Of a stretch of 64,000 bases of DNA, positions 1 to 52,139 are shown one piece after another. Each line of letters starts with the position of its first letter. The first letter of the stretch is position 1. The stretch spans positions 1-64,000 of the forward strand of contig JAFQQY010000002.1 in NCBI GenBank assembly GCA_017410365.1, given 5' to 3'. The translations under genes and the position numbers were made by a program. Origin of the DNA: Prevotella sp. Its GTDB lineage: Bacteria; Bacteroidota; Bacteroidia; Bacteroidales; Bacteroidaceae. A model generated the notes under the pieces. The model saw nothing but the letters and a program-made list of their open reading frames with translations, was not told the origin of the DNA and did no database searches.

Positions 1-340
1 CACTTTTGTCTATTCTTTTTGGCATATTTTTCATGTCTCTTCAGTCGTATAGCCCGCTATACTCCTTTAGAACACATAAAAAATCTTCTCAAAAATAACA
101 AGACAAACGCACTAAAATCTAAATGACCGATTTGGGTTAAATAAAAACAGAGAAGTGCCAGATCTCACAACGAGAAATGCCAGATCTCACAACGAGAAAT
201 GCCAGATCACGCTTAGAGATCTGGCATTTCTCGATTTATAAACCTCATCACGTGCCCTAAAGGGCACAGCTCCGCCTACAGCCCAGCCCGGGAAATTTGA
301 AGAATTCGTTTTGCTAGTTGGGGCAAGGATGCACACAGTT
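1..340. other. Left-edge intergenic stretch
   Basis: No convincing gene is seen here. It holds a short hairpin at 47-62 (GTATAG/CTATAC arms around CCCG), the 22-bp-period array at 150-232 listed separately, and a small palindrome at 252-267 (GTGCCC-TAAA-GGGCAC). The latter lies 3' of the minus-strand gene ending at 341 but has no T-tract on that strand, so it is not a standard intrinsic terminator. Confidence 0.6.
150..232. repeat. 22-bp-period array, GAGATCTGGCA family (4 units)
   Basis: Four 17-bp units start at 150, 172, 194 and 216, each separated by 5 bp (linkers ACAAC, ACAAC, GCTTA). The first three read GAGAARTGCCAGATCWC and the fourth is the reverse complement, GAGATCTGGCATTTCTC, yet stays exactly in phase. 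A second array of the same unit lies at 50833-50915 in the opposite majority orientation. Seen directly in the sequence; function unknown. Confidence 0.9.
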
Positions 341-2476
341 CTAACGCACAGGCCGAACGCTATGCTCGATGCGGTCGAGGCCGTTGGAGTTGAACCAGCC
401 CGCGCTGCGCGAGCGGAAGTACAATCCATGGGCGTAGTTCTCGTCGAGGGGCGTAGATGACCAATAGTAGCCGTTCGAGCCGACGCCGGAGAACTCGCCA
501 TCTATGCGCCACCCAGCAGCAGGCAGAAAAATTGTGCCACCGTTAGGGCCGATAAACCTCCGACCATTAACACCATTCATAGTTGTCCATTCTGAACGAC
601 AATTGTTAAACAGCTCTTTTATCTGTTCTAGGGTCGGGGCTGAAGCAACTTGCCCAAAAGTATAGTAGCCACCATAAGCCTCAGGAGTGGACGCGCCCTC
701 ATTGCAGCACCGCCACTGCGTGCCGCTGGGCAGACCGAGGTCTATCCAGTGCGGGTGGTTGGAGTCGGGGCAGGATGTATTTTTCAAACTTGCTTCAGGA
801 CTTGCTAAAACATCGAATTGATTAAAGAGCTTGACTTTGGGATATACAGTATAGCTATCAAGTTTATCCTTATTGAGCCCGGTAAACGTGTGTTCCATTT
901 TAGAAGCCTTGTTAGTATAGCTTGCACTGGCATCAAAGTTTGCAACTTCCATATTGTTATCATCTAACAATTTATAGCCAACATTAACCGGAATCAGACA
1001 ATCTCCACGTAATTCTGTATAAGCATCTACTGAGGTATTTGAATTGGATGTCTGCGTCAACTTCGTATTGGAGAACTCTGGCACAAGATTCCATGTATGA
1101 ATAGGTTCTGATAATTCCCATGTCAGACCATTACCCGTATGTGCTACAGAAGCCTGGAGTGAAACATTTACAAAACTGCCTACTTCAATATTTGAGTTCT
1201 TTAGCCGTTCATAGATTTTTGTTTCCTTAGAAGCATTATCAATGTCACTATTGCGGAGCACGAAACTGCCGCTGGCTCGTCCTCCCATCTCTCCACGTAC
1301 ACAAACCCGGGCTATCTCACGACTCAGAAGGTTAAAGCCAATCTCTAGGTAGGCTCCACCCGCCAGACTTCCATCAAGACTACCTGTCATATCAACAGAG
1401 GAACTTGCAAGCCGTCCCCCGATACTCGGTTTTATCGAATTTTTCCCTATGCTACTGAAGTCAAAGGCCGAGCCAAAAGTATAGTTTTGCGTGGATGTTA
1501 TAGAACTCGTAAATGTGGCATCAGCACGAACAAAAAGACCAGGATTGATGTAGAAGTTGACCATATTTCCAGTCATTGGTATAGGGCATGATGCAACGAT
1601 ACCGTCCCAATCGTGATTATAAGAAAGCACGCCATAAAGTGACGACTGAGAGGTTACTCGCAAGTCTCCAGTAAGTCTATAGCTGAAGTATGTACCCTGA
1701 CCTTCACCTATAATCAAGAAAGTATGTATTCTAAATGTGGGTTGTATCTCAACAGAGTAGCTAGCGCCACCACTCAAAGCAAGATCACCATCGTAAGCAA
1801 TACCCTGACTAATGTCGTAACTACGATTGAGTTTAAAAGGGCCTAAGGAAAAAACGACATCATCTGGGTTATATGTAGCACGCCGTCTGCTGCTAGCCGG
1901 AGTTTCTTCATCTGGTGTTGACCCATAAACCGTGGAAACGCTACAGAAAGAATCAAACAAGTCCTCAAGGTATGCTTGCTCACAAATAACATCAATAGAA
2001 GAATTGCCAGTCTGAATACTAGAAACCACACCTGAAAAACCGTATGGTAGGGCATCACAGCCTTCTAACAGAACGAGTTTATCTCCTTTTACTGGGACTA
2101 TAGCACTAGGAGTTTCAAGTTTCAGTTTTAAAGTAAGACCTTCTGCTCCTATAATATAGTCAAGCAGGTTGTATTCCAGATTTTTTACATCCTGCTTACA
2201 CTTTGTCTCCGGCGTCACAAACCCCACGCTGTCAATAGTAGCCAGAGGTATCTTATAGACACTGTCGGCTGTGTTGACAACCTGTGTCACGATTTCATCG
2301 TAATAGACACTGTCGGCATCATAGTTAGAATACTCTATGCTCAGTATCTCATCACGGAAGAAGGCATTGAACTGTCCGTCGTTACGGTAGATATAGAATG
2401 CCTCGCCGATGGTCTGTGCCATACCGGCAAGTGTTACGGCGGCAAATAAAAGAATAAGGCCAAGACGGTGTTTCAT
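341..2476 (-). CDS. Secreted protein with C-terminal FISUMP-like domain
   Basis: A 711-residue protein with an N-terminal signal peptide (hydrophobic stretch within residues 4-21). The middle is a long beta-rich region of unknown function. The last 135 residues begin with DLGLPSGTQWRCCNEGAS and contain GGYYTFG and YYWSSTP, which match the 'Fibrobacter succinogenes major paralogous' (FISUMP/DUF1566-like) domain common in secreted Bacteroidales proteins. Its start codon overlaps the stop of the upstream gene (ATGA at 2473-2476), so the two are probably translationally coupled and driven from the promoter near 3039. No T9SS tail is obvious in this protein. Export is inferred; the actual role is unknown. 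Confidence 0.75.
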   Translation of the reverse strand: MKHRLGLILLFAAVTLAGMAQTIGEAFYIYRNDGQFNAFFRDEILSIEYSNYDADSVYYDEIVTQVVNTADSVYKIPLATIDSVGFVTPETKCKQDVKNLEYNLLDYIIGAEGLTLKLKLETPSAIVPVKGDKLVLLEGCDALPYGFSGVVSSIQTGNSSIDVICEQAYLEDLFDSFCSVSTVYGSTPDEETPASSRRRATYNPDDVVFSLGPFKLNRSYDISQGIAYDGDLALSGGASYSVEIQPTFRIHTFLIIGEGQGTYFSYRLTGDLRVTSQSSLYGVLSYNHDWDGIVASCPIPMTGNMVNFYINPGLFVRADATFTSSITSTQNYTFGSAFDFSSIGKNSIKPSIGGRLASSSVDMTGSLDGSLAGGAYLEIGFNLLSREIARVCVRGEMGGRASGSFVLRNSDIDNASKETKIYERLKNSNIEVGSFVNVSLQASVAHTGNGLTWELSEPIHTWNLVPEFSNTKLTQTSNSNTSVDAYTELRGDCLIPVNVGYKLLDDNNMEVANFDASASYTNKASKMEHTFTGLNKDKLDSYTVYPKVKLFNQFDVLASPEASLKNTSCPDSNHPHWIDLGLPSGTQWRCCNEGASTPEAYGGYYTFGQVASAPTLEQIKELFNNCRSEWTTMNGVNGRRFIGPNGGTIFLPAAGWRIDGEFSGVGSNGYYWSSTPLDENYAHGLYFRSRSAGWFNSNGLDRIEHSVRPVR

Positions 2477-2946
2477 CGTTTCGTGAATTTAGAGGTTCGA
2501 CCATTGATACTTAGCACATAAACTCCCGAAGGGATAGAAGCGAGAGGCAGGCTGGCGTAAGAACCGCTACGCTGGAAATTAACAGGAACACAGATGCCGT
2601 TGACGGCATAAACTGCCAGTTTATCTGTAGCATTGATGCCATGGAATACGATTCGGCCGTCTTCCTGAGTGTAGCGAGCCTTTACGCTTGGACTTGTTAT
2701 GCCAGAGGCACCACCCTTATAAGTAAACTTAAGCACATCCAATTTAGAAAACTCCATGTCGAGAACGGTAGAGGTGATGAGCACCTTGTCGTCCTGAAAC
2801 TTTACTTGGGGCATTGTGTACAGCTCCACATCTGTTGTTGTGCCGTTTGCATGGTGAAGCACAAGACTTTGTGCCGACGTGCTGCTGATGCCCATCACAA
2901 CGAGTAGGAATACTACTAATGAAATCAGTTTCGTATGTTTTATCAT
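2473..2946 (-). CDS. Small secreted protein with T9SS type A-like C-terminus
   Basis: A 157-residue protein with a clear signal peptide ending near ...SSTSAQS (about residue 26). The C-terminal 50 residues (LAVYAVNGICV, then SIPSGVYVLSINGRTSKFTKR at the very end) have the layout of a type IX secretion sorting domain: a beta-sandwich with a G-x-Y-x-x motif and a basic end. The middle, with a TMPQVKFQDDKV stretch, resembles small Prevotella exported proteins of unknown function. It is first in a two-gene operon with the FISUMP protein. PorX at the right edge of the window makes a functional T9SS plausible. Confidence 0.7.
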   Translation of the reverse strand: MIKHTKLISLVVFLLVVMGISSTSAQSLVLHHANGTTTDVELYTMPQVKFQDDKVLITSTVLDMEFSKLDVLKFTYKGGASGITSPSVKARYTQEDGRIVFHGINATDKLAVYAVNGICVPVNFQRSGSYASLPLASIPSGVYVLSINGRTSKFTKR

Positions 2947-3038
2947 ATACTATTGTTTTAGATAATCAAACCCTATATCATAGAAATACCAACATAGGAA
3001 GTTCAAAGATAGCACAACCGTGAATAGGTGTGCAAATG

Positions 3039-3046
3039 CAAAAGTA
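3039..3046 (-). promoter_or_regulatory. -7 promoter element of the secreted pair
   Basis: CAAAAGTA on the plus strand reads TACTTTTG on the minus strand, matching the Bacteroidetes TAnnTTTG consensus about 95 bp upstream of the start at 2946. Confidence 0.5.
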
Positions 3047-3174
3047 AGGATTATTTCTGATTAAACAAAGAAAAAGGGGAAGATTTTAATGTAATACCGC
3101 AATGCAACATTCATTTAGTATGCCCATGTCAAATGATTGATGTAGAAAAATTTGGTGAAATAAATAGAATTAGG

Positions 3175-3182
3175 TATATTTG
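3175..3182 (+). promoter_or_regulatory. -7 promoter element of the toxin-antitoxin pair
   Basis: TATATTTG matches TAnnTTTG, with a TTG (-33 element) at 3152-3154, 20 bp upstream. It lies 20 bp before the ATG at 3203, which supports that start over a longer frame beginning at 3133. Confidence 0.65.
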
Positions 3183-3202
3183 CATTAAAAATATTATAGC
3201 TT

Positions 3203-3397
3203 ATGTTACAGACATCTATCATTTCACAAGAAAACAACACCGTTACCATAAAAATGAGTCGTCGGCGTTGGAAGCATCTTCAAAAACTAGAAGAATCATA
3301 CAAGGTGGCTACTGCTATCCGAAAGGGTATTAAACAAGCAGAAAAATCACCAGCCATGAGCATGAAAGAAGCAATTGAAACCTTGCGTAACTTATGA
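3203..3397 (+). CDS. Putative type II antitoxin
   Basis: A 64-residue basic protein that overlaps the following RelE-like toxin by four bases (ATGA at 3394-3397), the classic layout of a type II toxin-antitoxin pair. The N-terminus (ISQENNTVTIKMSRRRWKHLQ) could form a ribbon-helix-helix or other DNA-binding fold, followed by a helical C-terminus ending MKEAIETLRNL that would wrap the toxin. No family was recognised with confidence; the antitoxin role is inferred from size, position and overlap. Such antitoxins normally repress their own promoter, here at 3175-3182. Confidence 0.65.
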   Translation: MLQTSIISQENNTVTIKMSRRRWKHLQKLEESYKVATAIRKGIKQAEKSPAMSMKEAIETLRNL

Positions 3398-3717
3398 TGA
3401 ACGTTAGAATTTCAGATGAATTTAAAACTGCATACAAGCGGTTGAAGAAAAAGCACAAGTCTTTGGATGCTGATTTTGAGGCTCTCTTGATGTCTCTACA
3501 GGAAAATCCAAGACAAGGAGTGGAACTTCATGAAGATATCTGGAAAATACGAATGAACATTACGTCTAAAGGACGTGGGAAAAGTGGGGGTGCTCGTGTT
3601 ATCATACGATTGAGGATAGTTATGAACGAGTTACAACTAATCTATATTTACGACAAGGCTGATTTTGAAAATGTTAGTGACGCATACTTGCGTGATATTT
3701 TAAAAAGAATGCCTTAG
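3394..3717 (+). CDS. RelE/ParE-family toxin
   Basis: A 107-residue protein of typical RelE/ParE length. The start ISDEFKTAYKRLKKKHKSLDADFEALL matches the two opening helices of this superfamily, followed by LxENPRQGVEL, the basic beta-sheet core (WKIRMNITSKGRGKSGGARVI) and the final strands LQLIYIYDKADFENVS. Family members are mRNA interferases or gyrase poisons; which activity applies cannot be read here. A second possible ATG at 3397 follows immediately. The pair sits beside repeat-rich DNA with no transposase. Confidence 0.8.
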   Translation: MMNVRISDEFKTAYKRLKKKHKSLDADFEALLMSLQENPRQGVELHEDIWKIRMNITSKGRGKSGGARVIIRLRIVMNELQLIYIYDKADFENVSDAYLRDILKRMP

Positions 3718-3730
3718 CCTTTTGTACTTT

Positions 3731-3860: not shown

Positions 3861-3974
3861 TTTTGTGTCTAGGGATTTTGGGATTTTTAGGATTTTTCAG
3901 TTTTTCTGTCCAAAAAACATGTCTTTATGTCTTTAAAAACTTATGGCTCTTTTGCAAAGAGAATCATTAATAAT

Positions 3975-4180
3975 CCAGTGGAATAAAACAATCAGGCGAG
4001 GGCTTTGATGCCCCGCCTACCATAATGTAAGAGCGACAGGAGGAGCGGTTAAGTCCTCGCTCATGAGCATAGCTACCCTCTCATTATGGAGAGGGGCTGG
4101 GTGAGGCCTGGATTTAGGAGAGAGGTGGAGCCTCTCCTTACGGCAAGGAGAGGACGGGAGAGGTTGCGAAAAATATATAC
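3975..4180. repeat. Hairpin-rich dispersed repeat, copy A
   Basis: This block is shared with 50508-50680 in the same orientation, including GGCGAGGGCTTTGATGCCCC, TAAGAGCGAC and AGGAGCGGTTAAGTCCTC. It contains the hairpin arms CCTCTCCTT (4131-4139) and AAGGAGAGG (4145-4153), and GGCG/CGCC arms around 3994-4018. Copy A has about 35 bp (CATGAGCATAGC and onward) absent from copy B. It has no coding potential; it behaves like a non-autonomous or REP-like repeat. Confidence 0.85.
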
Positions 4181-4236
4181 CTCTAAAGGAACGCTTTGCA
4201 CAATTCCCTCCTAACCTCCCCTTGCTAAGGGGAGGA

Positions 4237-4378
4237 ACCTCGATGACACCTTGCGATACCTCGATGACACCTTGTGATACCTCGTGATACTTCGTGATAC
4301 CTCAAAGCCAAGGTATCACACATTAAGTATCTGTCTCTTAGCAAATTACCACACAATTGTGATACCTCAGCCCAAAAT
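4237..4378. repeat. 10/21-bp repeats of GTGATACCTC
   Basis: ACCTCGATGACACCTTG occurs at 4237 and 4258, and ACCTCGTGAT follows at 4279, a 21-bp step. The pattern then tightens to 10-bp steps (4289, 4299). An inverted AGGTATCACA lies at 4311-4320 and another GTGATACCTC at 4369-4378. Steps of 10 and 21 bp keep helical phase. Confidence 0.75.
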
Positions 4379-4400
4379 ACAAAATTATTTTGGAGAACTT

Positions 4401-4495
4401 TCATACATCCTACATTTTTAAGGTTAACCGACTGACACGCTGTGCGTTAGATGCAGTGTATAAGAAAATTTTACCTACATTTTTGGGCGCTTTTT
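4401..4495. repeat. CATACATCCTACATTTTT element, copy A
   Basis: It begins with CATACATCCTACATTTTT, has an internal AGTGTATAAGA that is partly inverted to the start (TCATACA/TGTATRA), and ends with CCTACATTTTTGGGC. The same arrangement, with a different 30-40 bp core, occurs at 49005-49093. In both places a 22-bp array of the TGCACCAC/AAACGGCC type follows within 75 bp. Confidence 0.75.
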
Positions 4496-4567
4496 TGATG
4501 CTTTTAAGTAATTTTAAGAATTATATTACATAAAAGCAAGGTGAACAAGGCATGTCTTTTGAGTATC

Positions 4568-4650
4568 AAAAGTGGTGCAGTTACGACTGCTAAACGGCCC
4601 GATTAAGCATCGTAAACGGCCGTTTTAGAACTCTGAAACGGCGGTTTAGA
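4568..4650. repeat. 22-bp-period array, AAACGGCC family (4 units)
   Basis: Four 17-bp units start at 4568 (AAAAGTGGTGCAGTTAC), 4590 (CTAAACGGCCCGATTAA), 4612 (GTAAACGGCCGTTTTAG, near-perfect palindrome) and 4634 (TGAAACGGCGGTTTAGA), with 5-bp linkers GACTG, GCATC and AACTC. The first three units return, reverse-complemented and in the corresponding order, at 49111-49171. The array ends 17 bp from the stop codon of the minus-strand ATPase, so it would be in that gene's 3' UTR. Confidence 0.9.
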
Positions 4651-4667
4651 CAATAGATTATTATAGT

Positions 4668-6005
4668 TTAGATATATAAAGGAAGCAACTTTGGCAATAG
4701 ATGAACATAATAAAACGGGATACTAAGAAGGCGGAATCTTTTACCATTCGGCGTCACTACATCATCAACTTGCATTGGCTGATTCCATACTCTTACAGCA
4801 AAATCATGTGGAGCATTATCCATGAATATCTGTAAAGATTTAAGATGTGCATTGTGACCAGCCTTTACCTCAATAGGTATTACCTTTCCATCAAATAAAT
4901 AAACGAAATCTAATTCTGATGTCGCACTTGGAGAGTTGCGAACCCAAAAATCATGATGTACATCAGCATCAGTTGTTGACGAAAACAGTTCTTGTGCAAC
5001 TAATTGTTCCGCTAATTTGCCTCTCCATGTGTCCATTATATTGGTAGAGAACATTACCTCTTGTTGTATATTTGCAGCATAGTTAATTATCCCAGCATCA
5101 ATCCAAAAGAGTTTTGGTTTGCGTCTATTCTCCTGAACAATTGGTAATTGACAAGATGTGATAGGGTATGTCAGTTCTAACAAATATGTACGTTCCAGCA
5201 TACGCAATGCCTCTCCTACTTCACGAGCCTTATAGCTTGATTCCGCAAAATTACCCAGTGTTATCTGTTCTGTAGAATATGTCCATCCTTTTTTAAGAAG
5301 CAAACGAATTACATTTTTCATTGTATCGTTCTTAGCATATTTTTCCACATCTTCACTATAGCTGCGCAATAAAGAAGCATAAACATCTTTCAAAGCGACA
5401 ATATCTGGATTATCAGAATATCGCGCTATGGCCTCTGGCATTCCACCAACAACAGCAAACTGCGAGAATAACTGCATCAACATTGGGTGTAATGACGAAT
5501 CTATGTGCATTGTATTCAGTTCGTCACATAGCAATGTATTGCCTGTTGCTTCGAGAAAATCAGAAAAAGAGCATGGACGAAGGTGCATATATTGTACTCT
5601 GCCTACAGGAAAAGAAATATGTTGATTTTGCAAAGTGAGCAGCAAAGAACCTGCTGATATCACATAGAGCCATGGATAATCCTCATAAAAATAGCGAAGC
5701 AACGCCACTGCCTTGGGGGAATTCTGTATCTCATCTATAAACAACAGCGTTTTTTTTGTTCTGTCCAATGGCTTTTTAGCAAAAAGAAATATCATCTTAA
5801 CAGATATATCAATATCTGCGGATTCGAAAATAGCCCAGTGATCAGGTTTTTCCAAGTTTAATGATATGAATACATCAAACTCTTTGCCAAACTCTTTTAC
5901 CATAGTCGATTTACCTACTTGGCGAGCTCCTCGTAACACTAAAGGTTTACGATATTTCGAATCTGCCCATAAGCGCAATTCTGATATGATTTTTCTCTGA
6001 AACAT
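4668..6005 (-). CDS. AAA+ ATPase with DUF4143 domain
   Basis: A 445-residue protein of the AAA_14/DUF4143 family, one of the most expanded orphan ATPase families in Bacteroidales. The Walker A motif GARQVGKST is at residues 26-34 and Walker B (LLFIDEIQ) near residue 90. The C-terminal third carries the DUF4143 region with WIDAGIINYAAN and a nuclease-like strand pattern ELDFVYLFDGKVIPIEVKAG (the E/D..E-x-K arrangement of PD-(D/E)xK folds). The function is not established for the family. It is monocistronic, with a -7 element at 6027-6034, a 33-bp triple tandem repeat just upstream and a 22-bp array just downstream. Confidence 0.85.
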   Translation of the reverse strand: MFQRKIISELRLWADSKYRKPLVLRGARQVGKSTMVKEFGKEFDVFISLNLEKPDHWAIFESADIDISVKMIFLFAKKPLDRTKKTLLFIDEIQNSPKAVALLRYFYEDYPWLYVISAGSLLLTLQNQHISFPVGRVQYMHLRPCSFSDFLEATGNTLLCDELNTMHIDSSLHPMLMQLFSQFAVVGGMPEAIARYSDNPDIVALKDVYASLLRSYSEDVEKYAKNDTMKNVIRLLLKKGWTYSTEQITLGNFAESSYKAREVGEALRMLERTYLLELTYPITSCQLPIVQENRRKPKLFWIDAGIINYAANIQQEVMFSTNIMDTWRGKLAEQLVAQELFSSTTDADVHHDFWVRNSPSATSELDFVYLFDGKVIPIEVKAGHNAHLKSLQIFMDNAPHDFAVRVWNQPMQVDDVVTPNGKRFRLLSIPFYYVHLLPKLLPLYI

Positions 6006-6059: not shown

Positions 6060-6158
6060 AATTCACAATATTTTGTTTCAAAAACAAAGTATAATTCACA
6101 ACATTTTGTTTCAAAAACAAAGTAAAATTCACAATATTTTGTTTCAAAAACAAAGCAA
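6060..6158. repeat. 33-bp tandem repeat, three copies
   Basis: Three adjacent units at 6060-6092, 6093-6125 and 6126-6158 differ at only a few bases (for example AATATTTTG versus AACATTTTG, and the last 2-3 bases of each unit). Each contains the inverted pair TTTGTTT/AAACAAA. There are no spacers, so this is not a CRISPR array. It lies just upstream of the ATPase promoter (25 bp from the -7 box), where an operator would be expected, and directly abuts the terminator of the MFS gene. Confidence 0.9.
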
Positions 6159-6160
6159 AC

Positions 6161-6218: not shown

Positions 6219-7673
6219 TTACTCAACAATGATTGGCTTGTACTTAGGAACAAGAGTCTTCATGATTGTCCATGCCAACAGATAAGCAACTGCACAGATG
6301 CAGAATACAATCATATAGCTGGCTGGCTTGCCCTCGAAACCAAGGAATGTGAATGCAGCACCCTGACCCTCAGCGTATGTAAAGAGGTTACCGGCACCCT
6401 TGTTGATAAGGAATGAACCTACACCACCAGCCATACCGCCGATACCTGTGATGGTAGCGATTGTTGACTTAGGGAACATGTCACCGATTGTTGAGAAGAG
6501 GTTAGCAGACCATGCCTGATGTCCTGCACCTGCAAGACCGATGATGATTGCTGGCCACCATGCTGAATAAACGCCCAATGGCTGAGCAAAGAGAGCTGCA
6601 AGTGGGAAGAATGCGAAGATAAGCATTGCCAACATACGGCCTGCATATGGGTTCATACCCTTCTTGTCAACAAATATCTTTGGCAGATAACCACCACCGA
6701 TAGAGATGAATGTAACGATAGCATATAGAACAACGATGAGCATGATACCCATTGGGTCGCTTGACTTATAGCCATACTGATCAGAGAAGTAAGCAGGTGC
6801 CCAGAAGAGGAAGAACCACCATACACCATCGGTGAAGAACTTACCTGTGATGAACGCCCATGTCTGACGGTATGTGAAGCACTGCAAGAAAGGAATAGTC
6901 TTCTCTTCCTTTACCTCTGCCTTAGTAGCAGCTGCAGCATCTTCTTCATCCTGATTGATATAGAGAAGCTCTGACTCGTTAACGAACTTAGACTTCTCTG
7001 GCTTCTCATAGAGGAATACCCAGAAGAACATCCAAATGAAACCTAAAGCACCGATGATGATGAATGCCATTTCCCAACCATAAGCCTCAGCAAGCAGAGG
7101 AATTGTTGCAGGAGCAGCAAGAGCACCTACTGATGCACCGGCGTTGAAGATAGATGTAGCGAAAGCACGGTCTTTCTTTGGGAAATACTCTGCTGTCACC
7201 TTGATAGCTGCAGGGAAGTTACCAGCCTCACCAGCTGCAAGAACGCAACGGCAAATCAAGAAGAGCCATACGCTGACACTTGCTACTGCAAGCGCTGCAG
7301 CAGAACCTGTTTCAACTGCCTTCATTGCCTCTATTGACTCAAAGCCTTCGATGTGCATTGTTGCCCAACCGCAACCTGCATGCAAGCAAGCACCGAGCGA
7401 CCAGATACCAATAGCCCAAAGATAACCCTTCATTGTGCCCATCCAGTCAACGAATTTACCTGCGAAGAGCATGAACACAGCATAGATGATTGAGAATGTA
7501 GCTGTGATTGTACCGTAGTCTGCATCGGTCCAGTGGAATTCTGGCGCGATGAAGTCCTTCCATGTTAACGAGAGCACCTGACGGTCGAGGTAGTTGACCG
7601 TAGTAGCCACAAAGAGCAACGAACAGATAATCCATCTGTGGTAACTCATTTTAGATGTTTGAATTTGACTCAT
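6219..7673 (-). CDS. MFS hexuronate-type transporter (ACS family)
   Basis: A 484-residue inner-membrane protein with about 12 hydrophobic helices. The NYLDRQVLSLTW motif in the first helix and the GRMLAML/NLFSTIGDMFPK loops are typical of the anion:cation symporter family, in particular ExuT-like galacturonate/glucuronate carriers. A hydrophilic loop of about 40 residues (MFFWVFLYEKPEKS to ATKAEVKEEK) lies mid-protein. The gene is alone, with its own -7 box and terminator. A GH28 pectinase at 25030-26526 would release the presumed substrate, although the two genes are not linked. Exact substrate is inferred. Confidence 0.8.
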   Translation of the reverse strand: MSQIQTSKMSYHRWIICSLLFVATTVNYLDRQVLSLTWKDFIAPEFHWTDADYGTITATFSIIYAVFMLFAGKFVDWMGTMKGYLWAIGIWSLGACLHAGCGWATMHIEGFESIEAMKAVETGSAAALAVASVSVWLFLICRCVLAAGEAGNFPAAIKVTAEYFPKKDRAFATSIFNAGASVGALAAPATIPLLAEAYGWEMAFIIIGALGFIWMFFWVFLYEKPEKSKFVNESELLYINQDEEDAAAATKAEVKEEKTIPFLQCFTYRQTWAFITGKFFTDGVWWFFLFWAPAYFSDQYGYKSSDPMGIMLIVVLYAIVTFISIGGGYLPKIFVDKKGMNPYAGRMLAMLIFAFFPLAALFAQPLGVYSAWWPAIIIGLAGAGHQAWSANLFSTIGDMFPKSTIATITGIGGMAGGVGSFLINKGAGNLFTYAEGQGAAFTFLGFEGKPASYMIVFCICAVAYLLAWTIMKTLVPKYKPIIVE

Positions 7674-19825: not shown

Positions 19826-19840
19826 GTTTAATAGCAATTA

Positions 19841-19915
19841 ACTCGTCAACTCGTTTACTTGTCAACTCGTCAACTTATCAACTTGTCAACTCGTCAACTC
19901 GTCAACTTGTCAACT
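19841..19915. repeat. 8-bp microsatellite ACTCGTCA (nine units)
   Basis: Nine consecutive octamers of ACTCGTCA/ACTTGTCA/ACTCGTTT type lie between the TolB-like gene and mtnN. The same octamer in inverse orientation (AGTTGACG) occurs at 34896-34931 and singly near 33487. Confidence 0.9.
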
Positions 19916-21085: not shown

Positions 21086-21182
21086 CTTTTATTGCCTTTT
21101 GCTTATTTCATACAGAGAAATCATTAAAGGCTATTAAGTTCGTTGAAGCTAATGGCATTCGAGAAATAGTCATGTCACTTTT

Positions 21183-21265
21183 TTACACGCACCGTGTAAC
21201 ACTTTTACATGCACTGTGTAATAGTATTACCCGGTGCGTGTAATACCATTACAAGATATTTGTAA
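21183..21265. repeat. 22-bp-period array of TTAC...GTAA palindromes (4 units)
   Basis: Four 17-bp units start at 21183 (TTACACGCACCGTGTAA), 21205 (TTACATGCACTGTGTAA), 21227 (TTACCCGGTGCGTGTAA) and 21249 (TTACAAGATATTTGTAA), with 5-bp linkers CACTT, TAGTA and TACCA. Every unit has TTAC/GTAA ends; the first is a perfect 7-bp-arm palindrome. It lies between convergent luxS and the gene ending at 21285. Confidence 0.92.
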
Positions 21266-21284
21266 AAATCTTGTAATCCCGTAT

Positions 21285-34895: not shown

Positions 34896-35012
34896 AGTTG
34901 ACGAGTTGACAAGTTAACGAGTTTACGAGTTATTTGACTTGTTTTCTTGCTGACGAACTGTCAGACTCCTTCAATGCCATTAACTTGTTACTTGTCAACT
35001 TGTTTACTTGTT
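34896..35012. repeat. 8-bp microsatellite AGTTGACG inside the efflux operon
   Basis: AGTTGACG, AGTTGACA, AGTTAACG, AGTTTACG and AGTT run from 34896 to 34931; ACTTGTCA/ACTTGTTT units in the opposite sense follow at 34983-35012. These are complementary, so the intergenic RNA could fold into a long imperfect hairpin between permease and channel genes. Confidence 0.85.
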
Positions 35013-38000
35013 TACTTCTCTATCGGATGAGTATATTGCAACAGCTCAGTGTCAACATGAGCGTCATCGTCCTCAAACTCTATTGGTTTTATCTTCTCCT
35101 GTGCCCACTGACATACCGCAAACAATGCTGGCACAATGAACACCTGACAAAGAGTACCAATGAGCATACCTCCAACGGCAGCCGCACCAAGAGTCTGGTT
35201 ACCGTTCTTACCTACACCGCTTGCAAACATCAATGGCAGAAGACCGATGATCATGGCGAGAGAGGTCATCAAGATAGGACGCAGACGGGCACCGGCACCG
35301 AGAATGGCAGAATACTTGATGGCCATACCCATGCGGCGGCGCTCAAGGGCAAACTGCACGATAAGGATGGCGTTCTTTGCCAACAGACCGATAAGCATGA
35401 TGAGCGCAATCTGCATGTAGATATCGTTACTATGACCGAATATCTGAGTGAACAGGAACGCTCCTGCGAGTCCGAACGGAATAGAAAGGATTACTGCCAA
35501 TGGCAGGATGTAACTCTCATACTGTGCAGAAAGAATCAGATATACGAACACGATACAGAGAACGAAGATAATCGCTGTTGAGTCGCTTGACTCCTGCTCT
35601 GAACGTGTCAAACCTGAATAGTCGAGACCGTAACCGTCAGGAAGAACCTGAGCAGCAACTTCCTCTACAGCCTGGATGGCCTGACCTGAAGAATAGCCGT
35701 CGGCAGCCGAAGCATTGACGTTGATACAGGTGAAGAGGTTGAAACGGTTGATGTTAGATGGTCCATACACACGGCGCAAAGAGCAGTACTCGCTAACTGG
35801 AGCCATGCCATTAGGTGTGCGCACATATATATTAGAGAGACCTTCTGGAGACATACGGCTGTCAACAGTACCCTGAATCATTACACGATACAACTTACCA
35901 TAAGCATTGAAGTTAGATGCATACATACCTCCATAATAACCCTGCAGTGTGCTGAGGATAGTGTTAGGAGCAATGCCGTTCTGCTTACACTTAGCAACAT
36001 CAACATCAACCATATACTGTGGATAGTTTGGATTGTATGAAGTCATGGCATTGGCAATTTCAGGACGCTTGTTCAACTCTGCCAGATAATTCTTAGTAAC
36101 CTCAAAGAACTTATTCAAGTCGCCACCTGTCTTATCCTGCATAGAGAATGTTACACCATTAGTGGCACTAAATCCAGAAACCATAGGCGGAGCGAAAGCA
36201 AGAATCTGAGCATCCTTAATATTAGCAGTCTGCTTATAAATTGTGCCAAGCACTGATGTATTTGCCAATGGGTTGACAAAGAAACGGCTTATGCCATCGC
36301 CTTCCCAAAGACCAGAGAGCATATAGAAGAAGCCTGATGGTCGGTCATGGAACGACTTAAGCTTGATGATGAATGTTGCTTGATCAGAGCCAGCACCAGC
36401 AATGAAGTTATAACCTACCAACTGCTCACGAGACAATACGGCAGGGTTTGATGCTAACATTTTGTCAACAATATCGATAACTTCCTGAGTACGTGCCTGA
36501 CTGGTACCAGGTGCCATTGAGATAGTACAAAAGATAACACCTGTATCCTCATCTGGCACAAGGCCTGTCTTGGTAGTATTCATTGTTATTACAAGAATGA
36601 CGATACCCAAAACAACAGAAACACCAGCTAATACTTTTCTCTTAATAACAGTCTCAACACCTTTCTTATATTTACCGAGAATCTTCTCATACTGCATGTT
36701 GAATGCTGCATGGAATCTTTCCACACGTGTCATCTTTTTGTCACCATGTTCTTCATGTGGCTTCAGGAAGATGGCACATAAGGCTGGAGAAAGGGTCAAA
36801 GCGTTAACGGCCGAAATCAGGATTGACACAGCCATGGTTATACCGAACTCACGATAGAAAGTACCAGAGATTCCACCCATGAATGATACTGGAACAAACA
36901 CAGCAGACATTACAAGGGTAATTGAAATAATGGCACCTGAAATTTCATTCATGGCGTCGATACTTGCAGTTAGGGCACTCTTATAGCCTTGGTCAAGTTT
37001 GGCATGTACAGCCTCAACCACCACAATGGCATCGTCAACCACAATGGCAATGGCAAGAAGCAAAGCAGAAAGCACAAGCAGGTTTATAGAGAATCCGAAT
37101 ATCCAGAGGAAAAGGAATGTACCGATAAGAGCCACCGGAACGGCAATCATTGGGATGAGCGTCGAGCGGAAGTCCTGAAGGAACACATAAACCACAAGGA
37201 ACACGAGAAGCAATGTGAGCACAAGAGTGAACACTACCTCTTCGATAGAAGCGTAGAGGAACTCGGTTACGTCGTAGTTGATCTTATATTTCATGCCAGG
37301 AGGGAAGTTCTTTGCCTGCTCCTCAAGCACTTTCTTAACATCAGTTGCAATCTGATTGGCATTAGAACCTGCAATCTGCTGCACCATACCCATCACAGAT
37401 GGCTGGTTATTGTTGCGCATTGACACATTATACATCAAACCGCCAAGCTCAACCTTTGCTACATCTTTCAGACGAAGAATCTGACCATTGGCATCGCTGC
37501 GGAGGATGATGTCGCCATACTCCTCTGCTGTCTTCAGACGGCCTTTATAGCGCATTACATATTCGTATGCAACATCGCTCTGCTCACCAAACTTACCAGG
37601 AGCAGCCTCGATATTCTGTTCTGCAAGGGCTGCAGTAACATCTGCAGGAATAAGACTATACTGCTTCATCTTTTCTGGCTGCAACCAGATACGCATTGAG
37701 TAGGTCTTCATACCTGGCGACTGCACGTCACCAACACCACTCACACGCTTCAGAGCAGGAACAATATTGATGTTAGCATAGTTAGTAAGGAACTCATCGT
37801 CATAGCGGCCATCCTCTGTGGTAAGAGTGTACATGATAACCTGTGATGTCTGACGTTTTGAAACGGTCACACCAACTCGTGTTACTTCAGCTGGGAGAAG
37901 TGCCTGAGCCTGAGACACACGGTTCTGCACGTTAACGGCAGCCATATCGGCATCAGAACCCTGTTCAAAGTAAACCGTTATAGAAGCCGAACCATCATTA

Positions 38001-48029: not shown

Positions 48030-48057
48030 CGATTGAAACATTAATACATATATTACA

Positions 48058-48768
48058 ATGGCAAAATTTAAAAGAATCTTATTGAAGTTAAGCGGCGAAA
48101 GCCTGATGGGCAATCAGGGCTATGGCATAGACCCGGAACGCCTTAACGACTATGCTCAACAGATTAAAGAAGTGAGCGAAATGGGTGTGCAGATTGGTAT
48201 CGTCATCGGCGGGGGCAACATCTTCCGCGGACTGAGCGGCAGCCAAAAGGGTTTCGACCGCGTCAAAGGCGACCAGATGGGCATGTGTGCAACAGTCATC
48301 AACTCATTGGCACTCAGTTCTGCACTCGGTGCACTTGGCGTAAAAAACAAGGTGCTCACAGCCATTCGCATGGAACCAATCGGCGAGTTTTATACAAAGT
48401 GGAAGGCTGTCGAAGCCATGGAAGCAGGCTACGTGTGCATTTTCTCTGCTGGAACGGGCAGTCCTTACTTCACCACCGACACAGGCTCTTCACTCCGAGG
48501 CATAGAGATTGAAGCCGACGTTATGCTTAAAGGAACACGCGTTGACGGCATCTACACCGCCGACCCAGAGAAAGACCCGACAGCAACCAAGTTCGACGAC
48601 ATCAGCTACGACGAGATTCTCTCGCGCGGTCTGAAGGTTATGGACCTCACTGCCACATGCATGTGCAAGGAAAACAATCTGCCTATCTACGTGTTCAACA
48701 TGGACATCGTGGGCAACCTCAAAAAGGTAATGGACGGCGAACCGATTGGTACTCTCGTACATCCGTAA
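48058..48768 (+). CDS. pyrH: Uridylate kinase
   Basis: A 236-residue UMP kinase of the amino-acid kinase fold. KRILLKLSGESLMG, VIGGGNIFRG, GTGSPYFTTDTGSSLRGIE and LKGTRVDGIYTADPEKDP are all diagnostic. It phosphorylates UMP to UDP as a hexamer. It lies 28 bp after birA and is followed by a strong stem-loop. Confidence 0.97.
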   Translation: MAKFKRILLKLSGESLMGNQGYGIDPERLNDYAQQIKEVSEMGVQIGIVIGGGNIFRGLSGSQKGFDRVKGDQMGMCATVINSLALSSALGALGVKNKVLTAIRMEPIGEFYTKWKAVEAMEAGYVCIFSAGTGSPYFTTDTGSSLRGIEIEADVMLKGTRVDGIYTADPEKDPTATKFDDISYDEILSRGLKVMDLTATCMCKENNLPIYVFNMDIVGNLKKVMDGEPIGTLVHP

Positions 48769-48785
48769 GGTTATATATTAAACAG

Positions 48786-48850
48786 AAACCACGAATTACG
48801 CTAAATCCACCAGACATGTGGGTAATTAGAGTAATTCGTGGTTTTTATTT
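48786..48850 (+). terminator. CACGAATTAC inverted repeat acting as pyrH terminator
   Basis: AAACCACGAATTAC and TAATTCGTGGTTTTT form a 13-bp stem followed by a T-rich stretch, 17 bp after the pyrH stop. It is a second copy of the dispersed inverted repeat at 22558-22625. Confidence 0.85.
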
Positions 48851-48860
48851 ATACATCTCA

Positions 48861-48980
48861 CTATAATGCTATAGCCTTACCCTCTGCCGTTATCCCCTCC
48901 GCCGATATAACCACTTGCGTGCAAGAAGAGTTATTGTAGAACTCCACTTTCGCCTTGCCGGATTTCCCTATTAATATCAT
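48861..48980 (-). pseudogene. C-terminal fragment of an exported carbohydrate-active protein
   Basis: A 39-codon minus-strand frame (MILIGKSGKAKVEFYNNSS, then a CTQVVISAEGI stretch and an AEGKAIAL end). The amphipathic beta-strand pattern with a K-A-x-V-E-F ... V-x-I-S-A-E-G-I layout resembles the C-terminal beta-sandwich of GH2-type glycosidases. It stands alone, with no upstream continuation in frame, and abuts the CATACATCCTAC repeat at 49005. Most likely a gene remnant; a tiny genuine gene is less likely. Confidence 0.4.
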
Positions 48981-49004
48981 TTTATTTTAAAAATATCATT
49001 TTCT

Positions 49005-49093
49005 CATACATCCTACATTTTTGCCCATAACATATTGTAGCATAGTTTATTATATGGAGTGTATGAGGATTTGAATCCTACATTTTTTGCCGT
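49005..49093. repeat. CATACATCCTACATTTTT element, copy B
   Basis: It has the same start, internal GTGTATGAGG (inverted to CTCATACA) and end CCTACATTTTTTGCC as 4401-4495, but a different core. Confidence 0.75.
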
Positions 49094-49110
49094 TATTTTG
49101 CCCATTTTTT

Positions 49111-49171
49111 GTAAAACAGCCGTTTACGATACCTAATTGGGCCGTTTAGCACTCGTAACTGCACCACTTTT
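49111..49171. repeat. 22-bp-period array, inverse of 4568-4628 (3 units)
   Basis: Units at 49111 (GTAAAACAGCCGTTTAC), 49133 (CTAATTGGGCCGTTTAG) and 49155 (GTAACTGCACCACTTTT), linkers GATAC and CACTC. Reverse-complemented they match units 3, 2 and 1 of the array at 4568, including the order. No clear fourth unit. Confidence 0.9.
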
Positions 49172-49269
49172 GAGGCGCAAAGGGCAGATAAGGGATTTTG
49201 ATTTGACAGAGAGACATACTTTTTTGTTATTTCTTAATAAGAACTATTGTCTGAGTGCATATATTTATG

Positions 49270-49277
49270 TAATTTTG
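49270..49277 (+). promoter_or_regulatory. Promoter of the DUF4932 gene
   Basis: -7 TAATTTTG with TTG at 49247-49249 (20 bp spacing), 64 bp before the ATG at 49342. Confidence 0.6.
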
Positions 49278-49341
49278 CTCTCACAATTCAAAAGGATTGC
49301 AAAGACATAAATAGAACGAGCAAACATCAAAAGAATCCAAT

Positions 49342-50436
49342 ATGAAAAGAATATCAATCTTCATCACAGTTTTCCTGCTTTTTACCTTGAGAGCGGAATC
49401 ACAAATCAAAGTAGAGGCATCCGAAACTGTCGAGTTGATGAGTGTGCTTTCACGGACGGCTGGATTTAGAGAATATTGTATGGATATGGCAGGCCAGTAT
49501 TCAAAAGATACAGAAATATGGTTTGCTCCATACAAAGAACATCCCATCATCGCCTATTATCAAGGGCTTCGCGAAAATCATAGCATTGGATACGATGCCG
49601 TTATGAGCATGGCTATCCATCTTGACATCAACAAGGGTAAAATCAAGTTTCTAGGCGAAAAGTCTGACCTTGAAAAGCGTTGGCATGATGTGGATACAGA
49701 CGATTTCGTTGCTCGGCTGAACCAGTTTTATGTAGACACCCGCTTCCATGAGTTCTACCAGCAACACCAAAAGTTCTATGAGGAAGGCTTGCATACCTAC
49801 GAGACCAATGTGATGCAGTATTTCCATCAGGGATGGTACGCACGGTTCTACGGAACCGAACCAACGGAGAAGTTCCGAGTCGTTATCGGTTTCACAAACG
49901 GCGGAGGCAACTATGGACCACACCGACAGCTTTCAGATCTGCCCAAGGAAGTATTTGCCATTGTAGGGTATTATGTTAATCCGCAGACGGGCAAGGCCTA
50001 TGAGAAAGGGCTGGATTATGCTTCTACGCTCATCCACGAGTTCAATCATTCTTTCGTCAACCCTCTGCTCAATGACGACTCAAACATAGCAATGCTAAAG
50101 GAAATCGGCCAAAATCTGCTAAAACTATCACCCATAGGCATGCAGCGGCAGAACTATACCCAATGGAACATTGTAGTCAACGAGAGCATTGTCCGTGCAG
50201 CAGTCATCATCTACATGCTTGACAATGGTTTTACCGTTGAACAACAATTGAAAGAGATTTACGATAATGTTTGTCGTGACTTCCGCTGGATGCCAGAATT
50301 GGTTGCAGCTCTTCGCACTTATGCCTCCAATCGTGAGCAATATAAAACCTTGAATGATTTCTATCCAGAGATTGCCCATTGCCTAGGCAAGTTTCTTGAT
50401 GACGAAAAAGAAAGAATCGAAAAGGCATTGAAATAG
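49342..50436 (+). CDS. DUF4932 protein with HExxH metalloprotease motif
   Basis: A 364-residue exported protein with a signal peptide (ISIFITVFLLFTLRAES). HEFNH at residues 232-236 is a zinc-protease HExxH motif, and NESIVRA with Glu about residue 281 is placed like the third zinc ligand of gluzincins. I assign DUF4932 from the overall pattern (APYKEHPIIAYYQGLREN, TNGGGNYGPHR). Proteolysis is inferred. It is flanked on both sides by repeats that also occur around 0-4.7 kb, which suggests an accessory gene. Confidence 0.75.
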   Translation: MKRISIFITVFLLFTLRAESQIKVEASETVELMSVLSRTAGFREYCMDMAGQYSKDTEIWFAPYKEHPIIAYYQGLRENHSIGYDAVMSMAIHLDINKGKIKFLGEKSDLEKRWHDVDTDDFVARLNQFYVDTRFHEFYQQHQKFYEEGLHTYETNVMQYFHQGWYARFYGTEPTEKFRVVIGFTNGGGNYGPHRQLSDLPKEVFAIVGYYVNPQTGKAYEKGLDYASTLIHEFNHSFVNPLLNDDSNIAMLKEIGQNLLKLSPIGMQRQNYTQWNIVVNESIVRAAVIIYMLDNGFTVEQQLKEIYDNVCRDFRWMPELVAALRTYASNREQYKTLNDFYPEIAHCLGKFLDDEKERIEKALK

Positions 50437-50507
50437 TTTTTAGTGACAAATAACATAGCTTCAATTTTTCAATCCTTCAGTTTTTAGAGGGACAGAAGTA
50501 CAAAAGG

Positions 50508-50680
50508 CCGGTGGAATAAGAATAATCAGGCGAGGGCTTTGATGCCCCGCCTACCTTAATGTAAGAGCGACGAGGAGGAGCGGTTAAGTCCTCTCGCCTG
50601 AGGAGAGAGGATTAAGAAGAGAGGTGGAGCCTCTCCTTACGGCAAGGAGAGGACGGGAGAGGTTGCGAAAAAATATACTT
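50508..50680. repeat. Hairpin-rich dispersed repeat, copy B
   Basis: It matches 3975-4180 in the same orientation, lacking an internal piece of about 35 bp. Hairpin arms CCTCTCCTT (50630-50638) and AAGGAGAGG (50644-50652) are preserved. Confidence 0.85.
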
Positions 50681-50832
50681 TTAAAGAACAGAAATTACTA
50701 TTATTCTCCCCTTCTTAGAGTTTAATTTCAAAATAACATTCAAAATGAACATAACAAATTTTCACACACAAAGCTTAAAAACTGCTAAAAGAATCTGTAT
50801 TCTTACGCATATTGTCAGGAAGTGCTAAATTA

Positions 50833-50915
50833 ACGAACTGGCACTTCTCTATCAGAGATCTGGCACTTCTCGATGAGAGATCTGGCACTTCTCGCCCCGA
50901 GATCTGGCATTTCTC
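50833..50915. repeat. 22-bp-period array, GAGATCTGGCA family (4 units)
   Basis: Units at 50833 (ACGAACTGGCACTTCTC, 14 of 17 matching), 50855, 50877 and 50899 (GAGATCTGGCAYTTCTC), linkers TATCA, GATGA and GCCCC. The same family as 150-232. Confidence 0.92.
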
Positions 50916-51056
50916 TTTTTTCGGCTATAGAAAACATGTTTTGTATTAGACAAAAACAAATCAAACAATCAACTTCCAAAGCGCATTGCATTTAACGTTG
51001 GTTAACAACCAGGCAAGTTTAACAAGACTATTTTTCGCATAATCAAAATTATATTG

Positions 51057-51064
51057 TACCTTTG
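51057..51064 (+). promoter_or_regulatory. -7 promoter element of the truncated lipoprotein gene
   Basis: TACCTTTG followed by C, 31 bp before the ATG at 51095. A longer frame beginning at the TTG at 51062 would start inside it. Confidence 0.55.
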
Positions 51065-51094
51065 CATAGACTAAAGACCAGTTATCATATAAAG

Positions 51095-51346
51095 ATGTTT
51101 ACAAGAAATATATTGGTTATACTTTTTGCCTTGCTCACGTTCTTCGCTTGCACAGGCGAAGACAGCAGGCAGATGCACGAAGCCCTGATGCAGGCAAAGG
51201 CACAGAACGAGAACTTTGAGCCGTTCACCACCGACAGCACCATGCTACGCGTTGTCGATTACTACGACGCCCACGGCACTGCCAACGAGCAGATGCTCGC
51301 CCACTATCTCCTCGTTATTTCCGTTTCAATATCTCCATCTTTATGA
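51095..51346 (+). pseudogene. Truncated TPR-type lipoprotein gene
   Basis: The first ~72 residues look like the start of a Bacteroidales TPR lipoprotein: a lipobox (TFFAC), then TTDSTMLRVVDYYDAHGTAN and EQMLAHYLL. In relatives this pattern leads into several TPR repeats and often a regulatory C-terminus. Here the frame passes into unrelated sequence (VISVSISPSL) and stops after 83 residues. The promoter is intact. Probably a 3'-truncated gene. Confidence 0.6.
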
Positions 51347-51473
51347 TAAGAACGATAATCAGTAGATGTTAGTAGGACAATATCCCGCTTCAATCTATGT
51401 TTTTACATTTTTTAAGTTTATTACGCGCAGTATTTCCCTTATATGGCCGTTTAATAGATAAAAGATTAAGCAA

Positions 51474-51536
51474 ATGAAGAGTATGAAAGTTTTTTATGCA
51501 ATAATTGCGATGGTGTCTTTTGTATTATATTTGTAA
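51474..51536 (+). other. Signal-peptide-like 20-codon frame
   Basis: ATG to TAA encodes MKSMKVFYAIIAMVSFVLYL, which resembles an isolated signal peptide. It overlaps the -7 box of the next gene and probably is a remnant or chance frame. Confidence 0.2.
51526..51533 (+). promoter_or_regulatory. -7 promoter element of the lipoprotein gene at 51559
   Basis: TATATTTG, 25 bp before the ATG. Confidence 0.55.
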
Positions 51537-51558
51537 TCAAATAATACTTTATAATCTT

Positions 51559-52080
51559 ATGAACAAATTACTATTAGCATTCTGCCTATTCATTGGCTTT
51601 GGCACATTCTGCTCATGCAGCAGTGATGATGAAGAAACAAATAATCCTGATATGATATGGGATTTGGCTCCAATCAATCTGAAAATAACCCCAGTAGATC
51701 AGCAAGGCAATTACATCTTGCTGGATTTTGATGATGTAAAGGTTACAGCTGAATGGAGAGGGAATGTGTATGAAAAGGACTCAAACGCTTCTGATTTCCC
51801 TGCACCACCAACAAGAGCATATCTTGCAAAAATGTATGGTCTGTTATCATACGACACATGCCTGGTCTTCGGAGAGCTTGATAGAGAATTAGACTACACA
51901 AACGAAAAGATTGTAATAAACTGGGGAGATGAATATAAGTCTGACACGATAGTGTTCAATCACAAACTGACATGGGTTAAAGGTAATAAGAGCTATAAAG
52001 TGCCTGAAAGCATTTTCGACATAAAACTAAATGGCAAACCTGTGGATTATAAGATGAGGGTGGTTAAGACCAAGAAATAA
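51559..52080 (+). CDS. Hypothetical lipoprotein
   Basis: 173 residues from the ATG at 51559; a longer frame from 51505 would include the promoter. Signal peptide with a lipobox at FCSC (residues ~18-21), then the acidic SSDDEETNN linker typical of surface-exposed Bacteroidetes lipoproteins. The rest is beta-rich (QGNYILLDFDDVKVTAEWRGN) with no recognised domain. A 22-bp-period array begins at its stop codon. Confidence 0.65.
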   Translation: MNKLLLAFCLFIGFGTFCSCSSDDEETNNPDMIWDLAPINLKITPVDQQGNYILLDFDDVKVTAEWRGNVYEKDSNASDFPAPPTRAYLAKMYGLLSYDTCLVFGELDRELDYTNEKIVINWGDEYKSDTIVFNHKLTWVKGNKSYKVPESIFDIKLNGKPVDYKMRVVKTKK

Positions 52081-52139
52081 ATGCACCAATTACAACTCAT
52101 AACTGCACCAATTAGACATCATAATTGGTGCAGTTTTAA
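52079..52139. repeat. 22-bp-period array, TGCACCAATTA family (3 units)
   Basis: Units at 52079 (AAATGCACCAATTACAA), 52101 (AACTGCACCAATTAGAC) and 52123 (AATTGGTGCAGTTTTAA, the inverse), linkers CTCAT and ATCAT. The first unit includes the last bases of the preceding stop codon. Confidence 0.85.

Follow-up and report, generated by a model that had tools for sequence, protein, structure and literature searches.

Two described repeats come closest to the elements treated here. PINSR of Prevotella intermedia/nigrescens is a non-coding, intergenic repeat of 188 bp with 177–184 copies per genome; it was published as a single repeat without terminal inverted repeats, limited to one clade, a Prevotella sublineage, and P. 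nigrescens is reported to carry it (PMC4755523). BrickBuilt of Porphyromonas gingivalis, with homologues in P. gulae, is an intergenic miniature inverted-repeat transposable element (MITE) composed of a leader, a tandem-repeat core, and a tail, with inverted ends like those of insertion sequences (IS); one strain holds 19 copies, and the repeat number differs between strains (PMC4596501). Small intergenic elements that are non-autonomous and have tandem repeats at their core, such as BrickBuilt, are already known. We analyzed positions 1–64,000 of contig JAFQQY010000002.1 (GenBank assembly GCA_017410365.1, Prevotella sp.; hereafter the window), which carries six intergenic arrays of 17-bp units separated by 5-bp spacers, with an exact period of 22 bp. 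What is new is the exact 22-bp ladder of alternating half-sites, which stays constant across the genus while its sequence is replaced, is abundant, and probably takes in PINSR. The arrays are probably the cores of MITE-like dispersed intergenic elements, with a half-site ladder that may be read as DNA by a dimeric protein.

A sequence-only reading of this DNA had listed the six arrays, and their coordinates, 17-bp units, and 5-bp spacers were all confirmed unit by unit. Four units each make up the arrays at 150–232, 4568–4650, 21183–21265, and 50833–50915, and three units each those at 49111–49171 and 52079–52139. The shared length of 83 bp, to which that reading had drawn attention, holds for the four-unit arrays but is no separate feature: it follows from 4 × 22 − 5, and other arrays of the genome have 2–6 called units. 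Autocorrelation over periods of 10–60 bp found 22 bp at five places in the window and 44 bp at four (three on the same arrays), with no more than two places for any other period; array 49111 is too diverged for the threshold applied. Tandem Repeats Finder reported period 22 for four of the six arrays (150, 21183, 50838, and 52077). When three inverted-repeat units in a row were required, there were five matches at 22 bp against none in the mirror control and no palindromic match at the other periods from 17 to 29 bp; at a looser threshold, the counts were six against two at 22 bp and one against two at 21 bp. This excess of 22 bp over both the mirror control and the other periods indicates that the arrays are real and not a product of chance.

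Each 17-mer is itself an inverted repeat, and the half-sites alternate in orientation at a spacing of 11 bp. Averaged over 31 arrays from 27 loci, positions paired about the center of a unit match at 0.71–0.85 for distances 2–7, and positions paired about the center of a spacer match at 0.66–0.81 for distances 4–9, the second symmetry being a consequence of the first together with the period. Units had been said to flip orientation without losing phase, and inverted units indeed occur in arrays 150 (the last unit) and 52079 (one unit). Such a unit keeps the phase because the arms are symmetric, as expected of a ladder of alternating half-sites.

The source genome, a 3.28-Mb draft of 55 contigs that is 89.4% complete, holds about 60 arrays in three arm families: GAGA..TCTC, STAA..TTAS, and TTAC..GTAA. 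Searches of the whole genome returned 58 matches to the GAGA junction pattern (up to two mismatches; none in the reversed control), 48 places with the STAA arm pattern (up to one mismatch; one in the control), and 20 matches to the TTAC arm pattern (up to two mismatches; four in the control). Of the four unit families proposed earlier, only three stand, because the second and fourth, labeled 'AAACGGCC' and 'TGCACC', are one; the arms of this merged STAA family read C/G-TAA ... TTA-C/G, and both forms are mixed inside single arrays. When places less than 110 bp apart were joined, the catalogue came to 64 candidates (36 STAA, 23 GAGA, and 5 TTAC), including two 2-unit candidates that are probably due to chance (C27:31969 and C38:79253). 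Sixty-two of the 64 lie outside called genes, as do all 39 arrays found in four near-complete genomes of the genus, in keeping with the MITE trait of an intergenic position with no transposase inside; gene contexts were taken from a simple codon-usage caller that missed some genes.

That the spacing is conserved while the sequence is replaced, as first suspected in the window, was borne out genus-wide by pattern counts and palindrome scans against controls. The GAGA junction was found in none of 39 other genomes. The exact STAA pattern occurs in 8 of 35 other genomes of the genus and in none of 24 genomes from other families of the order. It far exceeds the reversed control in four relatives (G046, 114; G018, 53; G050, 24; G048, 23); G003, G014, G015, and G049 have one or two matches each, which is not above the reversed control (0–3 per genome). 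The source genome and G046 have four core words in common, where 0.44 are expected, and three whole 17-mers, though their cores differ. For G018 and G048, nothing of this kind is shared.

A cross-species scan for tandem palindromes, which is independent of sequence, was scored against mirror controls; its first runs took in microsatellites, which were filtered out in the later scan. In 80 Prevotella-group loci (1.41 Mb), 26 palindromic 22-bp arrays were found against 3 in the mirror control. Arrays of 21 and 23 bp also occur in these loci, not in excess of the control (12 versus 10 and 5 versus 5), and a looser threshold gave 29 versus 8 at 22 bp and 21 versus 21 at 21 bp. Twenty further stretches from other members of the genus yielded 5 versus 1. 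At a similarity of 0.5 instead of 0.55, and with neighboring matches that may be one element (L358 10113 and 10198), the counts were 39 versus 5 in 400 kb from the four near-complete two-contig genomes and 8 versus 0 in 100 kb of a P. nigrescens replicon; periods of 20, 21, 23, and 24 bp gave 0–2 palindromic matches per near-complete genome. In 482 kb from other Bacteroidales families, there were 3 arrays against 2. Within the sample examined, the geometry is therefore confined to a 22-bp period and to this one genus, and the possibility that other periods are equally common, on which the sequence-only reading would have foundered, did not materialize: 22 bp alone stands clearly over control in the genus sample. 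In the sampled 100-kb stretches of the four near-complete genomes, an array is present in 32 of 107 intergenic gaps of at least 150 bp, so these arrays occupy a large share of the intergenic DNA of a major gut and oral genus.

Locus L279 of G053, a genome from another family of the order, carries two arrays of 23-bp palindromic units (TCACAAGTTTGTCA) at 8237 and 9676, 1.4 kb apart, possibly a 23-bp counterpart outside Prevotella.

The survival of a geometry whose sequence has been replaced is a hint that it has a physical reader. The arrays would belong to a genus-wide class of short, non-coding, intergenic elements of the MITE kind, about 100–260 bp long. Some copies would keep terminal inverted repeats and be moved in trans by a transposase, putatively of the IS982 family in G046; others would be hardly more than an array. 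In the ladder, inverted arms flank the 17-bp unit and likewise the 5-bp spacer. Array length would change in 22-bp steps through duplication or loss of units. The 22-bp step is kept even though the sequence turns over and, from one species to the next, entire families give way to others. The half-sites would lie on one face of the DNA, two turns apart, where they may be read by a dimeric DNA-binding protein that belongs either to the host or to the element, and this reading would be why the ladder is kept. Dimers bound every two helical turns had been proposed from the window; half-sites every 11 bp fit this idea, and the binding protein itself, as well as any benefit to host or element, is what we infer.

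Alternatively, the arrays could be neutral minisatellite noise inside MITEs, with slippage on palindromes making 22 bp a mutational attractor and no partner involved. Spacers within an array of the source genome are alike in direct orientation above chance (STAA, 18 versus 6.9; GAGA, 14 versus 5.3), as duplication would give; the arrays are nearly absent from genes, and the array at luxS is not kept between species. Slippage, however, gives no reason for a period of 22 bp only, in this genus only. Furthermore, neighboring units of STAA arrays agree at 0.92–0.94 in arm positions 3, 4, 14, and 15 as opposed to 0.47–0.70 in inner positions, a difference that is partly an artifact because the arms are the search pattern. 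We regard the neutral account as doubtful, if the least so of the alternatives considered in this work.

The dispersal assumed by the MITE-like reading is seen directly in the flanks of the arrays. Twenty homologous flanks belonging to 17 arrays (16 STAA and 1 GAGA) make up the largest group, with identities of up to 93%. Among same-strand flank pairs of all families, the distance to the array differs by 0–1 or 20–22 bp in 33 of 148, as if the copies differed by whole units; the rest are spread. TTAC copies have only the array and a few bases in common, about 100 bp. An end motif, TGCATAAATATAC, flanks 10 of the 23 GAGA arrays on both sides, and in 8 of these cases the orientation is inverted. 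The motif, itself nearly palindromic, lies mostly 56–60 bp from the array and otherwise at 45–46 or 78–79 bp, and the four clearest copies with ends measure 198–199 bp in total; no target duplication is visible at the four 198-bp GAGA elements of the source genome. None of the 36 STAA and 5 TTAC arrays has the motif on both sides, and 2 of the 36 STAA arrays have it on one side; one motif was present in 39 of 2000 random window stretches. We set aside a reading of these flanks as ARG boxes, because 14 of the 16 exact TGCATAAATATAC sites in the genome adjoin GAGA arrays.

In the relative G046, the arrays sit between AACGTGAGTTCGAYGAA ends, for which 82 sites (up to two mismatches) were found against one in the control. 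Many G046 contigs end within the element, which calls for caution with assemblies. Two complete copies with an array are present: C96:150–339 (190 bp) has AATT on both sides, and a copy of 261 bp on C78 has no clear duplication. Of the two array-less copies, one is flanked on either side by ATTT and the other is without duplication. Ends of the AACGTGAGTTCGAYGAA type occur in 99 of 299 genomes of the genus, and pairs of them 1,027–1,056 bp apart were found at least 15 times in at least 11 genomes, with some shorter pairs among the matches listed. In two of six end-pair loci inspected, the ends enclose an open transposase frame, and 5-bp duplications are present (AAAGT and AGGTT); both transposases tested belong to the IS982 family, above the curated cut-off, and a third IS982 copy (L345) has no clear target duplication. 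A recombinase had been among the earlier suggestions, but a dedicated one is not what emerged: the only mobilizing enzyme that can be named comes from one relative, where an ordinary IS982 transposase acts on the ends of the element. In P. gingivalis, MITE239 at its 5′ end (ACGTGAGTTCGA...) and MITE700 at its 3′ end (TCGAACTCACGT) agree in sequence with the ends of both the G046 element and the IS982-family IS described above (PMC4596501, Table 2); the passages of that paper dealing with these two elements report no 22-bp array (PMC4596501). In plasmid collections, neither the STAA leader with its array from the window nor the G046 stretch had a match, and the GAGA junction was not found in viral contigs.

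Genome G108 contains ten segments of 149–220 bp, within 100 kb, of a repeat with 17+5 units at 22 bp. It matches a repeat found at ten places on the 568-kb P. nigrescens replicon, the best match being 78% identical. P. nigrescens being a reported carrier of PINSR, this repeat with its 22-bp core is very probably PINSR. Section 14 of the PINSR paper mentions neither an internal period nor palindromes (PMC4755523). The claim that no described element has this layout was therefore half right: PINSR very probably contains the layout and BrickBuilt is a 23-nt analogue, yet the layout itself goes undescribed in section 14 of the PINSR paper. We also considered the arrays of the window as copies of PINSR and rejected this; by inspection, their units are unrelated to those of G108 and P. 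nigrescens, no alignment search having been made between them. The PINSR-like repeat was not found in the phage collection. Three IMG/VR contigs (L373, L374, and L375) matched the PINSR-like double unit, perhaps through host DNA that flanks proviruses.

BrickBuilt differs from the Prevotella arrays by its 23-nt direct repeats without spacers, its IS5-type ends, and its length of up to 991 nt (PMC4596501). Membership of the arrays in BrickBuilt is ruled out by their period of 22 bp and their 17+5 structure, and on the likeness of its build BrickBuilt is best taken as their analogue. One frame may hold PINSR and, by analogy, BrickBuilt. Literature searches returned no description of a class of 22-bp palindromic arrays, the nearest among the papers listed being the two already named (PMC4755523, PMC4596501).

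Repetitive extragenic palindromic (REP) sequences and bacterial interspersed mosaic elements (BIMEs), which are moved by a Y1 transposase (REP-associated tyrosine transposase, RAYT), resemble the arrays: they too are short palindromes dispersed between genes and arranged in tandem, both direct and inverted (PMC3733652, PMC6006769). They differ in that they are palindromes of 20–40 bp carrying a GTAG or CGTC tag (two large families), and the passages of these papers on their structure describe no fixed 22-bp ladder (PMC3733652, PMC6006769). An origin as elements of this type is highly improbable and failed on the enzyme: Y1_Tnp (PF01797) has no match in the source genome, at its 89.4% completeness, and is present in 5 of 14 control genomes. 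The iterons of plasmid origins, e.g. RK2 oriV, consist of 17-bp sites that are separated by short spacers and recur about every two helical turns. They are asymmetric, located at one origin, and bound by the plasmid Rep protein. The array units, in contrast, are palindromic, and the chromosome carries dozens of arrays at scattered sites.

Palindromic units can also be viewed as folding units. The folding of one strand would then be what is kept, as an extruded cruciform or as single-stranded DNA at the fork, and compensation would come from templated repair of quasi-palindromes or from selection. In single-stranded DNA folding, four of the six window arrays are far better than dinucleotide shuffles (z −6.1, −3.6, −7.7, and −6.3), but array 50833 is only modestly better (z −2.8) and array 49111 no better (z +0.5). 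In 11 aligned copies of the PINSR-like element (the 10 G108 segments and the P. nigrescens match H1, leaving out the diverged G108 copy L361 and the other P. nigrescens copies), the half-sites are nearly invariant and the spacer words swap in concert. Word 1 has a complementary partner in all 11, being complementary to word 3 in 9 and to word 2 in 2, with a compensatory swap of the whole word in 3 of 11. Pairing of words 1 and 3 at this level was reached in 2 of 500 shuffles, whereas pairing of words 1 and 2 over all 11 copies was reached in 500 of 500 and is thus below the shuffles. In the source genome, complementarity of spacers within an array is not above chance (STAA, 1 versus 5.1 expected; GAGA, 3 versus 5.8; TTAC, 3 versus 2.5). 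We rejected complementary spacers as a general rule, as the excess appears in G108, P. nigrescens, and a mixed-species set, for which the shuffle was too lenient, and not in the source genome; long-range pairing is kept in the PINSR-like family and not in the source genome. An exact 22-bp step, moreover, is not demanded by the stability of hairpins alone, and we consider a kept hairpin or cruciform unlikely as the basis of the arrays.

The position of the arrays relative to genes bears on whether they act as RNA, for instance as hairpin arrays transcribed in 3′ untranslated regions that serve as terminator, stabilizer, or platform for proteins or small RNAs. The sequence-only reading had placed the arrays mostly 3′ of genes. 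This fits the STAA and TTAC arrays and fails for the GAGA arrays, 9 of 23 of which lie between divergent genes. In co-directional gaps of the source genome, 16 of 19 STAA/TTAC and 9 of 10 GAGA arrays are nearer the upstream stop than the downstream start, and several STAA/TTAC arrays start within 10 bp of a stop codon; in the near-complete genomes, the bias falls to 13 of 20 co-directional arrays. Departures from pairing on the sense strand lean to G·U over A·C in STAA (47 versus 31) and TTAC arrays (7 versus 2; 54 versus 33 taken together), but this lean is gone in GAGA arrays (15 versus 17), in relatives (23 versus 36, a set that includes some microsatellites), and in the near-complete genomes (27 versus 21). 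Summed over all sets, the counts are 119 versus 107, and there is no overall RNA strand signature. Rfam had no match in the window at gathering score. The proposal of an RNA processed in 22-nt steps finds no footing in these counts, and an RNA function of any of these kinds is quite improbable. Judging by their placement, the arrays seem to keep clear of genes and start regions rather than to occupy one regulatory site.

Several observations weigh against MITE-like elements with a protein-read ladder. Part of the STAA arm conservation is built into the search, and the period of 22 bp is slightly above two turns of relaxed B-DNA (21 bp). The coordinated change of spacer words in one family would suit a hairpin or cruciform. 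As to mobility, 13 of 23 GAGA arrays lack the paired TGCATAAATATAC ends, the GAGA ends come without an associated transposase, and the STAA and TTAC arrays are without recognized ends. The link to IS982, drawn from shared end sequences, is limited to a single species, G046, and the source genome has one exact IS982-type end only. Among 29 luxS orthologue loci, an array directly 3′ of luxS is absent throughout (the gene's end could not be placed in 11, and one locus stops at that point), and this speaks against a conserved function at the site; five of the loci have arrays elsewhere. With low confidence, we suggest a still wider role for the dimeric protein that would read the ladder, in which it might polymerize on the 11-bp half-sites of dozens to hundreds of IS-spread ladders per genome. 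In this fast-evolving, genus-wide system, the specificity of the protein and the letters of the ladder would be replaced together at a constant 22-bp geometry, forming a network that might organize the chromosome or insulate genes.

Individually, the window arrays differ in family and surroundings; apart from the TTAC element, they are given without strand. The first, at 150–232, is of the GAGA family, and its unit order and spacers resemble those of arrays C4:24203 and C49:1168 of the source genome. An end of the TGCATAAATATAC type is absent within 130 bp of it, and both GAGA arrays of the window lack the paired ends. Beside it lie two adjacent open reading frames, at 341–2476 and 2473–2946 (711 and 157 amino acids), without a Pfam match at E 0.001. 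The second GAGA array, at 50833–50915, has its four units in a single orientation; positions 50760–51314 are 87% identical to the surroundings of array C47:52078.

The STAA array at 4568–4650 ends 17 bp from the stop end of gene 4668–6005 (− strand), which encodes an AAA_14/DUF4143 protein. Its left flank or leader (4381–4567, + strand) is common to other array-bearing loci of the genome, with identities of 84% to L206 and 77% to L040, both reaching into the array, and 70% to L205 and L035; over 3970–4558, the identity to L029 is 81%. The STAA array at 52079–52139 starts on the stop codon of the open reading frame ending at 52080. The third STAA array, at 49111–49171, lies 342 bp past the stop of gene 48058–48768, a member of the amino-acid-kinase family that we take to be pyrH. 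In L157, L144, L154, and L186, arrays of period 21, 23, 23, and 22, respectively, follow pyrH on its 3′ side at a distance of up to about 100 bp; these pyrH-adjacent arrays of four Prevotella-group loci are unrelated in sequence, with one array in common to L144 and L154. The TTAC element spans 21180–21280 (+ strand), the array at 21183–21265 and short ends forming the whole repeated unit of ∼100 bp. The source genome holds five more copies of it, four clear and one diverged, and the relative G152 holds one.

Other repeats share the intergenic space of the window, in which a scan found no transfer RNA genes. Adjoining the leader, a dispersed intergenic repeat at 3875–4188 (no strand) is 83% identical to L001 and 72% identical to window positions 50435–50686; it is perhaps a different repeat from the array leader. 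Together, these two window copies belong to a repeat of about 200–300 bp that is 70–91% identical among L001, L029, L035, and L205. Arrays with a period of 8 bp lie in intergenic DNA at 19840–19915, 34896–34931, and 34983–35017 (AACTCGTC, AGTTGACG, and ACTTGTTT). Similar strings occur in L257, where they lie 3′ of luxS, and in L367 of genome G156, and the 8-bp-period arrays are perhaps another genus-wide class. Prevotella loci further contain tandem 8-mers of the TTTCGANN type (L117, L126, and L149) and TCTAGA-type 9-mers (L114, L132, L133, and L158), both of which surfaced in the palindrome scan as periods of 16, 18, and 24 bp. A 33-bp tandem repeat of three copies, reported by Tandem Repeats Finder at 6060–6159, lies between genes 4668–6005 and 6219–7673.

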